A program made the position numbers and the translations under genes. From Aggregicoccus sp. 17bor-14 (lineage in GTDB: Bacteria; Myxococcota; Myxococcia; Myxococcales; Myxococcaceae): a stretch of 64,000 nucleotides of DNA. The notes beneath the pieces are model-generated. The model was not told where the DNA came from and searched no databases. It saw only the letters and a list, made by a program, of their open reading frames with translations. The stretch spans positions 124,001 to 188,000 of the forward strand of contig NZ_VJZZ01000003.1 in NCBI RefSeq assembly GCF_009659535.1, given 5' to 3'. Shown in pieces: positions 27,752-58,164 of the stretch (positions are counted from its first letter, which is position 1; each line of letters begins with the position of its first letter).

Positions 27752-28456
27752 ATGCCCGACCTTGCCCACTTCACGCAGTCACTCGCGCAGGAGGGCTTCG
27801 CGCTCGTTCCCTCAGCGATCTCTCCCGAGACCCTCGCGGACCTCTGCACCGCGCTCGCAGAGCCCCTACACGACGACGACCGTCGCCGCGGCGGACAGCG
27901 CGACGTCCTCGACCGCGTCCCCGAGGTGCAGTCCCTCGCGAGCTCCGAGCCCGTGCGCCGCCTCGCCGAGGCAGTGCTGGGCAGCGGCTGCTTTACCGTG
28001 CGCGCCCTCTTCTTCGACAAGACGCCGCGAGCAAACTGGAAGGTCCCCTGGCACCAGGACCTGACGATCGCCGTGAGGGAGCGCCGCGAGGTCGCGGGCT
28101 TCGGTCCCTGGACGACGAAGGCCGGTGCGACGCACTGCCACGCGCCGCGCGAGCTCCTCGAGCGAATGCTCTCTCTGCGCATCCACCTCGATGACTGCGC
28201 CGCGGACAACGGCCCGCTGCGCGTCATCGCGGGCTCCCACCGCGCGGGAATTCTCAGCGCCACGCAAATCGATGCGCTGAAGACCCGGCCCGAATCGGTC
28301 TGCACCGCGCAGCGAGGCGAAGTGCTCGCCTTCCACCCGCTCTTGCTGCACGCCTCCTCGCCCGCAGTGAGGCCGGGACATCGGCGCGTACTACACCTCG
28401 AGCTCGCGTCCGCATCGCTCCCGGAGGGACTCTCCTGGCGGTGGCAGCACGCCTGA
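27752..28456 (+). CDS. Phytanoyl-CoA dioxygenase (PhyH) family oxygenase
   Basis: 234 aa. The Fe(II) site is H101-x-D103 in PWHQDLTIAV and the distal H200 in LLLHASSPA, with the 2-oxoglutarate-binding basic pair at about R211-R212. SGC near residue 80 and DDCAADNGPLRVIAGSH (about 147-163) are typical of PhyH. The enzyme couples O2 and 2-oxoglutarate to hydroxylate an unknown substrate. ATG 27752 follows a repeat copy that seems to supply its ribosome site (GGAAG). The last 66 bases overlap a Leu-rich microprotein gene on the opposite strand. Confidence 0.88.
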   Translation: MPDLAHFTQSLAQEGFALVPSAISPETLADLCTALAEPLHDDDRRRGGQRDVLDRVPEVQSLASSEPVRRLAEAVLGSGCFTVRALFFDKTPRANWKVPWHQDLTIAVRERREVAGFGPWTTKAGATHCHAPRELLERMLSLRIHLDDCAADNGPLRVIAGSHRAGILSATQIDALKTRPESVCTAQRGEVLAFHPLLLHASSPAVRPGHRRVLHLELASASLPEGLSWRWQHA

Positions 28457-28573
28457 GCCCGGCTGCGGGCCTGGCTCCTCCCCCTCCGCGTCGTCGTTCG
28501 CTGCGTCGCGGGGCTCCTCGAATGAGCGGCGCGGCGGGACGTAAAGAAGCATCAGCAGCACGAGCAGGTCCAT
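28391..28573 (-). CDS. Leu-rich microprotein of the MDLL...ANDD family, copy A
   Basis: 60 aa, of no known family. It begins MDLLVLLMLLYVPPRRSF. A hydrophobic run (residues 3-12) is followed by a basic/Pro segment, then A25-N26-D27-D28 and an acidic tail AEGEE. Two paralogues in this window have the same layout. ATG 28573 has GGAG six bases upstream in the sequence GGAGAACCCGATG, identical to copy B. It is antisense to the end of the PhyH gene for 66 bases. A TGACA-N6-TGTCA dyad lies 56 bases upstream of its start. The hydrophobic stretch may anchor it in the membrane. Coding status rests on paralogue conservation. Confidence 0.6.
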   Translation of the reverse strand: MDLLVLLMLLYVPPRRSFEEPRDAANDDAEGEEPGPQPGSGVLPPPGESLRERCGRELEV

Positions 28574-28628
28574 CGGGTTCTCCGGTCGCCGGGGTGCATA
28601 CGACGAGAGGAACAATGGACCCGGGCCG

Positions 28629-28644
28629 TGACAGGGGGATGTCA
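28629..28644. promoter_or_regulatory. Conserved upstream dyad of microprotein A
   Basis: TGACAGGGGGATGTCA (TGACA-N6-TGTCA) lies 60 bases upstream of the microprotein A start on the minus strand. Equivalent sites precede copies B and C. On the minus strand it reads TGTCACG, the same heptamer as the -35 of the adjacent epimerase promoter. Confidence 0.5.
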
Positions 28645-28679
28645 GGTTTGTGCGCGGAGCGCGGCGCCAGGAGTGCACC

Positions 28680-28706
28680 TGTCACGCTGCGGCCGGTCGC
28701 CTCGTC
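28680..28706 (+). promoter_or_regulatory. ECF41-type promoter of the epimerase gene
   Basis: TGTCACG at 28680-28686 and CGTC at 28703-28706 are separated by exactly 16 bases. The published ECF41 consensus is TGTCACA-N16-CGTC. The predicted transcript start near 28713 leaves about 49 bases to ATG 28762. The matching ECF41 sigma factor is encoded convergently next to the epimerase. Confidence 0.75.
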
Positions 28707-28761
28707 TCGTGCGTGAAGGGTGCCGGAAGGGCCGGCACCGCACCTCGGGAGGAGCGAGCAC

Positions 28762-29745
28762 ATGCGGGTCTTCGTCACGGGCGCCACGGGCGTCATCGGT
28801 CGGCGGGTGGTTCCCCAGCTCGTCGCGGCAGGAGTGGACGTCACGGCGGTGGGGCGCACCGCCGAGAAGCGGGCGCAGCTGGAGCGGCTGGGCGCGCGCA
28901 GCGTGGCGGTGGACCTCTTCGACCGCGACGCGCTGCGCCACGCGCTCGCCGGGCACCAGGCGGTGGTGAACCTGGCCACGCACATCCCGGCCCCCGGGGC
29001 GCGCATGCTCCTGCCCAGCGCGTGGCGGGAGAATGACCGCGTGCGGCGCCTGGGCTCAGCGGCCCTGGTGGATGCCGCGCTCGCGGCGGGCGTGGAGCGC
29101 TTCGTCCAGGAGTCCTTCGCGCCCCTCTACGAGGACGGGGGCGAGGCGTGGATCGACGAGCAGTGGCCGATGCGCCCCGTCCGCTACAACCGCTCGGTGC
29201 TCGACGCCGAGGCCTCGGCCGAGCGCTTCACCCGGGCGGGCGGCATTGGAGTGGTGCTGCGCTTTGCCGCCTTCTACGGCCCGGACGCCCTGCACGTGCC
29301 CAGCACGCTGGACGTGCTCCGCCGCGGCTGGATGCCCCTGCCGGGACGGCGCGAGGCCTTCCTCGCCACCGTGTCGCACGACGATGCGGCGAGCGCCGTG
29401 GTCGCGGCGCTGCGCGCGCCTGCTGGGCGCTACAACGTCGTGGACAGCGAGCCCCTGCGCCGCGGCGAGTGGGCCGCGCTGCTCTCGGAGACGCTCGGCG
29501 TGCCACCCCCGCGCTTCCTGCCGGCGTGGACCTCGCGCCTGGGCGGCTCACTGATGGAGCTGCTGTCGCGCTCGCAGCGGATGTCCAACCGGAAGCTACG
29601 CGAGGCGACCGGGTGGACGCCCCGCTACGCGAGCGCACGCGAGAGCTGGCAGGCCCTGGTCACTCTAGTGACTGCAGGCGCAGCTTCTCCGGATTCACCA
29701 CGTTTCGCAGGGCGTGGATCTGCGCTCCATCCGTCTCGATCGTGA
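28762..29745 (+). CDS. NAD(P)-dependent epimerase/dehydratase-type SDR, ECF41-associated
   Basis: 327 aa. The Rossmann motif G7-A-T-G10-V-I-G13 is in VFVTGATGVIGRRVV. The extended-SDR catalytic position is Y142 in RYNRSVLDAE; the usual YxxxK lysine reads Val146, so catalysis may be altered. TVSHDDAASAVVAALRAP is the typical substrate-domain region. Epimerases are one of the three gene types (carboxymuconolactone decarboxylase, oxidoreductase, epimerase) that accompany ECF41 sigma factors. GGGAGGAG sits 7 bases before ATG 28762, and the gene has an ECF41-type promoter. Its 3' end overlaps the sigma gene by 86 bases in convergent orientation. Confidence 0.87.
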   Translation: MRVFVTGATGVIGRRVVPQLVAAGVDVTAVGRTAEKRAQLERLGARSVAVDLFDRDALRHALAGHQAVVNLATHIPAPGARMLLPSAWRENDRVRRLGSAALVDAALAAGVERFVQESFAPLYEDGGEAWIDEQWPMRPVRYNRSVLDAEASAERFTRAGGIGVVLRFAAFYGPDALHVPSTLDVLRRGWMPLPGRREAFLATVSHDDAASAVVAALRAPAGRYNVVDSEPLRRGEWAALLSETLGVPPPRFLPAWTSRLGGSLMELLSRSQRMSNRKLREATGWTPRYASARESWQALVTLVTAGAASPDSPRFAGRGSALHPSRS

Positions 29746-30514
29746 TGACGAACTCCGCGGTGCCGCCCACCCTGCCCACGATGGCGGGCCAGCCGTTGAC
29801 CTCCTCCGTCCCTACGGTGAGGCCCGTGGGGGCGGGGAACTTCTGGCGCAGGCCCACCAGGAAACGGGCGATGGCGGCGGCACCGTGCACGGGCTTGCTC
29901 GCTGCGCCGCGCACCTTGCCGTTGCTGTCTGCCCAGAGCGTGGCGTCCTTCGTCAGCGCGGCCTCGACTGCCTCCACGTCGCCCTTCCACACCGCCTGGA
30001 AGAAGGCCTCGAGCATGCGCTGGTGCTCCTCGCGCGAGGGCGCGAAGCGCGGCCGCCCCTCCTGCACGCGCGCGCGGGCCCGGTGCACCAGCTGGCGCAC
30101 GGCGGCCTCGTCCTTGTCGAGGATGCGCGCAATCTCCGAGTGGCGGTAGTCGAACACCTCGTGCAGGAGGTAGGCGGCGCGCTCCACCGGGCCGAGGCTC
30201 TCGAGCAGCACCAGGAAGGCGAGCGAGATGGCGCCGGAGTCCACGGGCTCGCGCGTGAGCACGGGCTCCGGCAGCCACGGCCCCACGTACTGCTCTCGCC
30301 TCGCACGCGCCGACTTGAGCTGGTCCATGCACAGCCGGCTGACCACGGTGGTGAGCCAGCCCTCGCTGGACTCCACGGTGGACGGGTCCACCGTGCTCCA
30401 GCGCAGCCAGGCCTCCTGCAGCACGTCCTCCGCCTCGGCCTTGGAGCCGAGCATCCGGTACGCGAGCGAGAGGAGCTTGCTGCGGTGCGCGACGAACTCG
30501 TCCTGCGTCTGCAT
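29660..30514 (-). CDS. ECF41-group RNA polymerase sigma factor with C-terminal SnoaL-like domain
   Basis: 284 aa. Sigma region 2 (about 5-75, AYRMLGSKAEAEDVLQEAWLRW) and region 4 (about 95-155) are followed by a fused SnoaL/NTF2-like domain (about 165-284). The three ECF41 signatures are present: WLPEP at 80-84, DSNGK at 196-200 (consensus DGGGK) and NPEKL at 274-278 (consensus NPDKL). In ECF41 proteins the C-terminal domain controls sigma activity instead of an anti-sigma factor. Start ATG 30514 has GGGAGG upstream. Its predicted target is the convergent epimerase. It lies 32 bases downstream of microprotein B on the same strand and may share its transcript. Confidence 0.93.
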   Translation of the reverse strand: MQTQDEFVAHRSKLLSLAYRMLGSKAEAEDVLQEAWLRWSTVDPSTVESSEGWLTTVVSRLCMDQLKSARARREQYVGPWLPEPVLTREPVDSGAISLAFLVLLESLGPVERAAYLLHEVFDYRHSEIARILDKDEAAVRQLVHRARARVQEGRPRFAPSREEHQRMLEAFFQAVWKGDVEAVEAALTKDATLWADSNGKVRGAASKPVHGAAAIARFLVGLRQKFPAPTGLTVGTEEVNGWPAIVGRVGGTAEFVITIETDGAQIHALRNVVNPEKLRLQSLE

Positions 30515-30546
30515 CTCGTGCCTCCCTGGCCCCGGGGGCCAGGACA

Positions 30547-30726
30547 CTAGACGAGCGCGGGCGTTTGCACGTGACAGTCCGCCCCTGCAGCCCCCCTCCG
30601 GGGGCCGCGTCCCGCGGGGGAATCCTCTGGCGCCACCTCCCGGTCGTCGTTCGCCACGCTCTGCGAGTCCGGGACGCCGTGGCGAGGGGCAGGGGACGGC
30701 AGCAACAGCAAGAGGAGCAGGTCCAT
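30547..30726 (-). CDS. Leu-rich microprotein of the MDLL...ANDD family, copy B
   Basis: 59 aa. It begins MDLLLLLLLPSPAPRHG. Seven consecutive leucines (3-9) are followed by a Pro/basic segment and then V24-A25-N26-D27-D28, at the same residue positions as in copy A. The start context GGAGAACCCGATGGACCTGCTC (shown as two pieces, GGAGAACCCG and ATGGACCTGCTC) is identical to copy A. It ends 32 bases upstream of the ECF41 sigma start on the same strand. A degenerate form of the conserved dyad (TGACG-N6-TGTCC) lies 57 bases upstream of its start. A short membrane-associated peptide co-expressed with the sigma factor is a reasonable inference. Confidence 0.6.
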   Translation of the reverse strand: MDLLLLLLLPSPAPRHGVPDSQSVANDDREVAPEDSPAGRGPRRGAAGADCHVQTPALV

Positions 30727-30782
30727 CGGGTTCTCCGGGAATGAGTCGTCCATTCGGCACCCGCGGATCTAGGGCTGCACCG

Positions 30783-30798
30783 TGACGCGGGGATGTCC
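30783..30798. promoter_or_regulatory. Conserved upstream dyad of microprotein B
   Basis: TGACGCGGGGATGTCC, the degenerate counterpart of the copy A and C dyads (TGACA-N6-TGTCA). It is 61 bases upstream of the microprotein B start measured to the outer half-site, against 60 for copy A. The rest of the 220-base gap to the acetyltransferase gene shows nothing recognisable. Confidence 0.4.
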
Positions 30799-57836: not shown

Positions 57837-57980
57837 CTAGGGCGCGGGGCGGAGCGGGTGCGCCGATGGCGGGGGAGGTGCGGGCTCGGCGTCGTCGTTG
57901 GCCGCGCGAGGGAGCGGCCGCGTGGCGGGGGCGAGCGCGGGGCGGAAGTCGGCGAGCAACAGCAAGAGGAGGAGGTCCAT
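57837..57980 (-). CDS. Leu-rich microprotein of the MDLL...ANDD family, copy C
   Basis: 47 aa. It begins MDLLLLLLLADFRPAL and continues to A27-N28-D29-D30 and AEP, then a Pro-rich tail. Seven leucines match copy B, and the ANDD block is offset by two residues against copies A and B. The start context GGAGTCCCCGATG is closely similar to A and B. Its stop is 124 bases before the GAF kinase start on the same strand. A conserved dyad (58115-58130) lies 135 bases upstream of its start. Synonymous differences from copy B (CTC versus CTG, GCC versus GCG) support real translation. Confidence 0.58.
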   Translation of the reverse strand: MDLLLLLLLADFRPALAPATRPLPRAANDDAEPAPPPPSAHPLRPAP

Positions 57981-58114
57981 CGGGGACTCCGGCGCGCTCC
58001 GGGTCGGACGCCGACACCCCTCCGGAAGCGCAGGCGGAGGGACCCGGGGCTGCAGGGCAAGGCGCGTGCCGTACCTGCACCGCGGTGGCGTGCACCCGGT
58101 GTCGCAGGGGCGCG

Positions 58115-58164
58115 TGACAGCCCTCTGTCAGGAAATCCGACGGCGCCGTTCGAAAGGCCTGACA
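58115..58164 (-). promoter_or_regulatory. Conserved dyad and near-ECF41 promoter upstream of microprotein C
   Basis: TGACAGCCCTCTGTCA at 58115-58130 repeats the TGACA-N6-TGTCA dyad of copies A and B. Just upstream on the minus strand, TGTCAGG (58164-58158) and CGTC (58142-58139) are separated by 15 bases, one short of the ECF41 spacing. The 282-base gap holds only these and the divergent Notum-like start region. Confidence 0.4.

Follow-up and report, generated by a model that had tools for sequence, protein, structure and literature searches.

In the window, the whole 64-kb stretch of DNA that we analysed, an extracytoplasmic-function sigma factor gene of the ECF41 type and an NAD-dependent epimerase gene face each other between two very small open reading frames, a third copy of which lies some distance away. 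The features of the locus, and those elsewhere in the window or genome that bear on it, are as follows.

28391..28573 (-): microprotein A, 60 aa, MDLLVLLMLL...AANDDAE; points away from the epimerase gene
28628..28645 (-): palindrome TGACATCCCCCTGTCAC(G) upstream of A
28680..28706 (+): predicted ECF41-type promoter of the epimerase gene, TGTCACG-N16-CGTC, exact; 55 nt from -10 to ATG
28762-29745 (+): NAD-dependent epimerase/SDR gene, 327 aa; PF01370 at E 3.6e-20 and an NmrA match
29660..30514 (-): ECF41 sigma factor gene, 284 aa, SigJ-type; sigma2, WLPEP linker, sigma4 and a SnoaL_2 extension with DSNGK and NPEKL
30547..30726 (-): microprotein B, 59 aa, MDLLLLLLL...VANDDRE; upstream of the sigma gene in the same orientation, with 32 bp between the two
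30550..30576 (-): predicted ECF41-type promoter of the sigma gene, TGTCACG-N16-CGTC, exact; 35 nt from -10 to ATG
30782..30798 (-): degenerate palindrome GGACATCCCCGCGTCAC upstream of B
57837..57980 (-): microprotein C, 47 aa, MDLLLLLLL...AANDDAE, a third paralogue 27 kb away with no ECF41 neighbour
58114..58131 (-): palindrome TGACAGAGGGCTGTCAC(G) upstream of C
C8:162569-163417 (another contig of the same genome): second ECF41 sigma gene, 66% identical to the sigma of the window

The sigma protein consists of sigma2 and sigma4 domains only (Pfam Sigma70_r2 at residues 9-70 and Sigma70_r4_2 at 99-149), followed by a C-terminal extension with a SnoaL-like fold (SnoaL_2 at 169-230), which is the layout of ECF41 factors with their extension of about 100 aa. 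Its best NCBIfam models are the SigX4 and SigJ subfamilies, and the nearest solved structure by sequence is that of M. tuberculosis SigJ (PDB 5xe7; phmmer, E 1.3e-46, 162 bits). WLPEP lies in the sigma2-sigma4 linker at residues 80-84 and is kept in 19 of 20 aligned relatives; in the extension, DSNGK at residue 196 and NPEKL at 274 correspond to the DGGGK-like and NPDKL-like motifs of ECF41 proteins. Among the aligned ECF41 relatives (n=20), WLPEP and NP(D/E)KL are almost unvarying, and all 20 carry DGGGK or DGGGR at the position of DSNGK, which on this alignment is a variant of DGGGK that the window sigma has in common with M. tuberculosis SigJ. An earlier note, made by reading the DNA, had picked out WLPEP, DSNGK, NPEKL and a SnoaL-like tail at 29660-30514, and the Pfam, NCBIfam and SigJ matches bear this reading out. 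A scan of the sigma against named genomes returned only one distant Bacillota locus.

ECF41 genes are adjacent to a gene for a carboxymuconolactone decarboxylase (CMD), an oxidoreductase or an epimerase, and have no anti-sigma gene. Here the partner is the convergent epimerase gene, the 3' end of which overlaps that of the sigma gene by 86 bp, and Pfam searches found no anti-sigma gene among the neighbours (epimerase, PhyH, hexapeptide acetyltransferase and the microproteins). The identification of the locus as ECF41 with an epimerase partner, also made in the earlier note, is well supported and agrees with the published description of the group (PMC3426412). Among 91 other family genomes no relative of the epimerase reached E<=1e-50, so the gene may have been acquired from outside the family.

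A predicted ECF41 promoter precedes both genes, where the group would have one ahead of the partner, the sigma gene or both. The site ahead of the epimerase gene, which the earlier note had reported at 28680-28706, is an exact TGTCACG-N16-CGTC and agrees with the published promoter definition (PMC3426412); the sigma gene's own site (30576-30550, minus strand), absent from that note, sits within the 3' end of microprotein B. The window has two matches to the pattern TGTCAC-N17-CGTC where 0.11 would be expected, and none of 100 shuffles gave two. At both sites the -35 element ends in G (TGTCACG), whereas the published consensus ends in A (TGTCACA); the closest relatives' ECF41 sites also have the terminal G. 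A G+C-rich hairpin is possible in both ECF41-driven 5' untranslated regions (30515-30549 and 28707-28761), just past the predicted start site. These hairpins were considered as a conserved element and dropped, as the relatives do not have them.

Across the whole 6.9-Mb genome, TGTCACR-N16-CGTC occurs six times, compared with one match in the reversed control. Two of the sites belong to the window locus and two to the second ECF41 locus, on contig C8, where TGTCACG-N16-CGTC stands before the sigma gene and before its CMD partner; the remaining two are antisense within called genes and are probably chance matches. We then considered 21 further ECF41 loci, namely the C8 paralogue and 20 loci in relatives. 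At 20 of the 21 the motif is present, its spacer being 16 or 17 bp (0.35 sites in total expected by chance), and it lies 6 to 55 nt from the start codon. In several relatives (L038, L039, L040, L041 and L053) the start codon follows the CGTC of the predicted promoter after only 8-9 nt, which suggests that these loci would give leaderless messages; such a distance, as for leaderless mRNAs, points to the motif being in promoter position. In relatives, the partner is an FAD-dependent oxidoreductase or a CMD protein at some loci; in four genomes it is a multi-pass membrane protein. This last, the promoter-bearing partner at L059, L060, L061 and L062 (genomes G039, G004, G025 and G012), has no Pfam match at usual thresholds and is not a CMD protein, an oxidoreductase or an epimerase.

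Together, these observations make it very likely, with a probability of about 90%, that the sigma factor gene, the epimerase gene and their two promoters form a self-contained ECF41 regulatory module. The terminal G of the -35 elements and DSNGK in place of DGGGK are the points of sequence that tell against it. As each of the convergent genes has an inward ECF41-type promoter, the sigma factor is predicted to regulate itself and one target. By analogy with studied members, in which the SnoaL-like extension has been described as an inhibitory domain thought to act through conformational change (PMC8999054), the sigma factor would be held inactive by its own SnoaL_2 extension and not by an anti-sigma protein. 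A signal, probably a small ligand, would then change the conformation of the sigma factor. RNA polymerase carrying it would start at the two inward-facing TGTCACG-N16-CGTC sites, and the epimerase/SDR gene and the sigma gene would both be switched on, giving positive autoregulation.

The microproteins have to be placed relative to this module. A and B are paralogous open frames with a common start region, CCGGAGAACCCGATGGACCTGCTC, and the common peptide ANDD; A and the upstream PhyH gene overlap, the latter at its 3' end. C is followed on the same strand, after about 124 bp, by a GAF-PAS-HisKA histidine kinase reading frame, and it is divergent from a pectinacetylesterase-like gene. The family pattern (MDLL...ANDD) has exactly three matches in this genome, A, B and C, and none in the reversed control; 95 further family genomes lack it, and a looser pattern run on 195 genomes of the phylum returned A, B and C together with three AT-rich, seemingly unrelated matches. 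As a protein query against its own genome, A matched itself and gave weak matches that include B. None of the three matches a Pfam model, and neither A nor B an NCBIfam model. Several leads were discarded. In a search of 79 genomes (this one and relatives) for the microprotein start sequence, the match in G014 lies inside a long gene, the match in G029 is its counterpart, and G007 gave one match, no more than its control. A tmRNA was considered as a source of the ANDD motif, and the window has none.

Upstream of the microproteins lies a palindrome, TGACA-N6-TGTCA followed by CG, which is exact before A and C and degenerate before B. In its exact form with CG, the palindrome is present at just three sites in the genome: besides those of A and C, there is one before a gene of the GFA (glutathione-dependent formaldehyde-activating) family (L111, G000:C5:341997-342014). 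That site and the palindrome site of A have ACAAACCTGACAT....CTGTCACGG in common. An element GACATCCCC-N2-GTCACGG was also sought in the family; it gave scattered one-mismatch matches in which no shared context was found, and was abandoned. We found nothing on TGACA-N6-TGTCA in the literature. Before A and C, the right half of the palindrome reads TGTCACG and is identical to the ECF41 -35 element, and no CGTC follows it there at the right spacing.

The earlier note had suggested that A and B join the ECF41 response, either as part of the regulon or by acting with the sigma factor. Their placement invites the idea: they lie directly outside both ends of the module, B has the orientation of the sigma gene and precedes it by 32 bp, and the palindrome before A holds the very heptamer used as the local -35 element. 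However, that heptamer has no properly spaced CGTC downstream, and TGTCAC-N17-CGTC is found upstream of none of A, B and C. The statement that A and B bracket the module is literally right, but the third copy, at 57980-57837, is outside the locus and away from any ECF41 gene. The earlier note had proposed a survey of ECF41 loci in relatives for flanking ANDD microproteins; no MDLL/ANDD peptide was found at the 13 relative loci scanned, nor at the C8 ECF41 locus. We therefore regard membership of A and B in the ECF41 response as very unlikely; A is probably outside the module, and B, from its distance to the sigma gene, may share a transcript with that gene by read-through.

The spacing of B and C from the genes downstream of them raises another reading, in which the sigma gene has B, and the gene of the GAF/PAS histidine kinase has C, as a leader open reading frame, so that a palindrome-controlled transcript running through the short frame into the regulator gene beyond it would be a second input to sigma expression. 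Palindrome-like elements upstream of all three copies fit this proposal, but directly downstream of A no gene runs in its direction (the convergent PhyH gene comes next), and the palindrome of B is degenerate; on balance we think it unlikely. The three copies might instead belong to a short dispersed DNA element and not encode proteins at all, given that blocks of conserved DNA (CCGGAG-N2-CCCGATGGACCT-S-CTC and AACGACGAC) are separated by diverged sequence and that the copies are limited to one 30-kb stretch. Against this, the first nine codons of B and C are the same but for two synonymous third positions, and C departs from A and B in spacing by two codons, both of which favour real coding; moreover, each ATG is preceded by a plausible ribosome-binding site, and third codon positions are rich in G+C. 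A non-coding origin is accordingly doubtful. More elaborate still is the proposal that all three genome-specific microproteins (MDLL-LL...ANDDAE), with a TGACA-N6-TGTCA-type palindrome upstream of each, are leader frames or small regulators that provide a shared second input to the ECF41 sigma factor and the GAF/PAS histidine kinase, which we hold to be quite improbable. Taken by their sequences, the microproteins are a separate, lineage-restricted family with an upstream palindrome of its own.

The ECF41 module formed by the sigma factor, the epimerase and their promoters is of interest as a clean two-promoter case in which the sigma factor is predicted to act on its own gene and on one neighbouring target. 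Its rare convergent order, together with the second ECF41 locus in the same genome, offers a chance to test cross-talk and positive feedback. The microprotein family, for its part, is new sequence confined to one genome.

Group ECF41 was defined by Wecke et al. 2012 through the features matched here, with the partners collectively termed COE (PMC3426412), and because these features agree, the window locus is, as far as its sequence tells, an ordinary member of the known family, uncommon only in its convergent order with both promoters. Like the ECF41 factors with COE partners, Ecf41Bli and Ecf41Rsp among them (PMC3426412), it has the characteristic domain layout, the WLPEP linker motif and the conserved C-terminal extension, and like published ECF41 loci it has no anti-sigma gene, an epimerase (PF01370/NmrA) partner and TGTCAC-N16-CGTC (PMC3426412). 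The published promoter, TGTCACA-N16-CGTC, precedes COE genes and often ECF41 genes too; convergent order accounts for 9 loci (2%) in the table of Wecke et al., and in that order the motif usually stands before only one gene (PMC3426412). The locus here differs in that its sigma and epimerase genes are convergent and both promoter-bearing, and in that the -35 element ends in G. M. tuberculosis SigJ (5xe7) has the same architecture and an identical DSNGK, although its sequence likeness to the window sigma is only moderate. Closest to hand is the C8 locus of the same genome, which, like the window locus, has TGTCACG-N16-CGTC before both the sigma gene and its partner, but in which the partner is a CMD gene in tandem with the sigma gene, in place of a convergent epimerase gene, and which is without microproteins.
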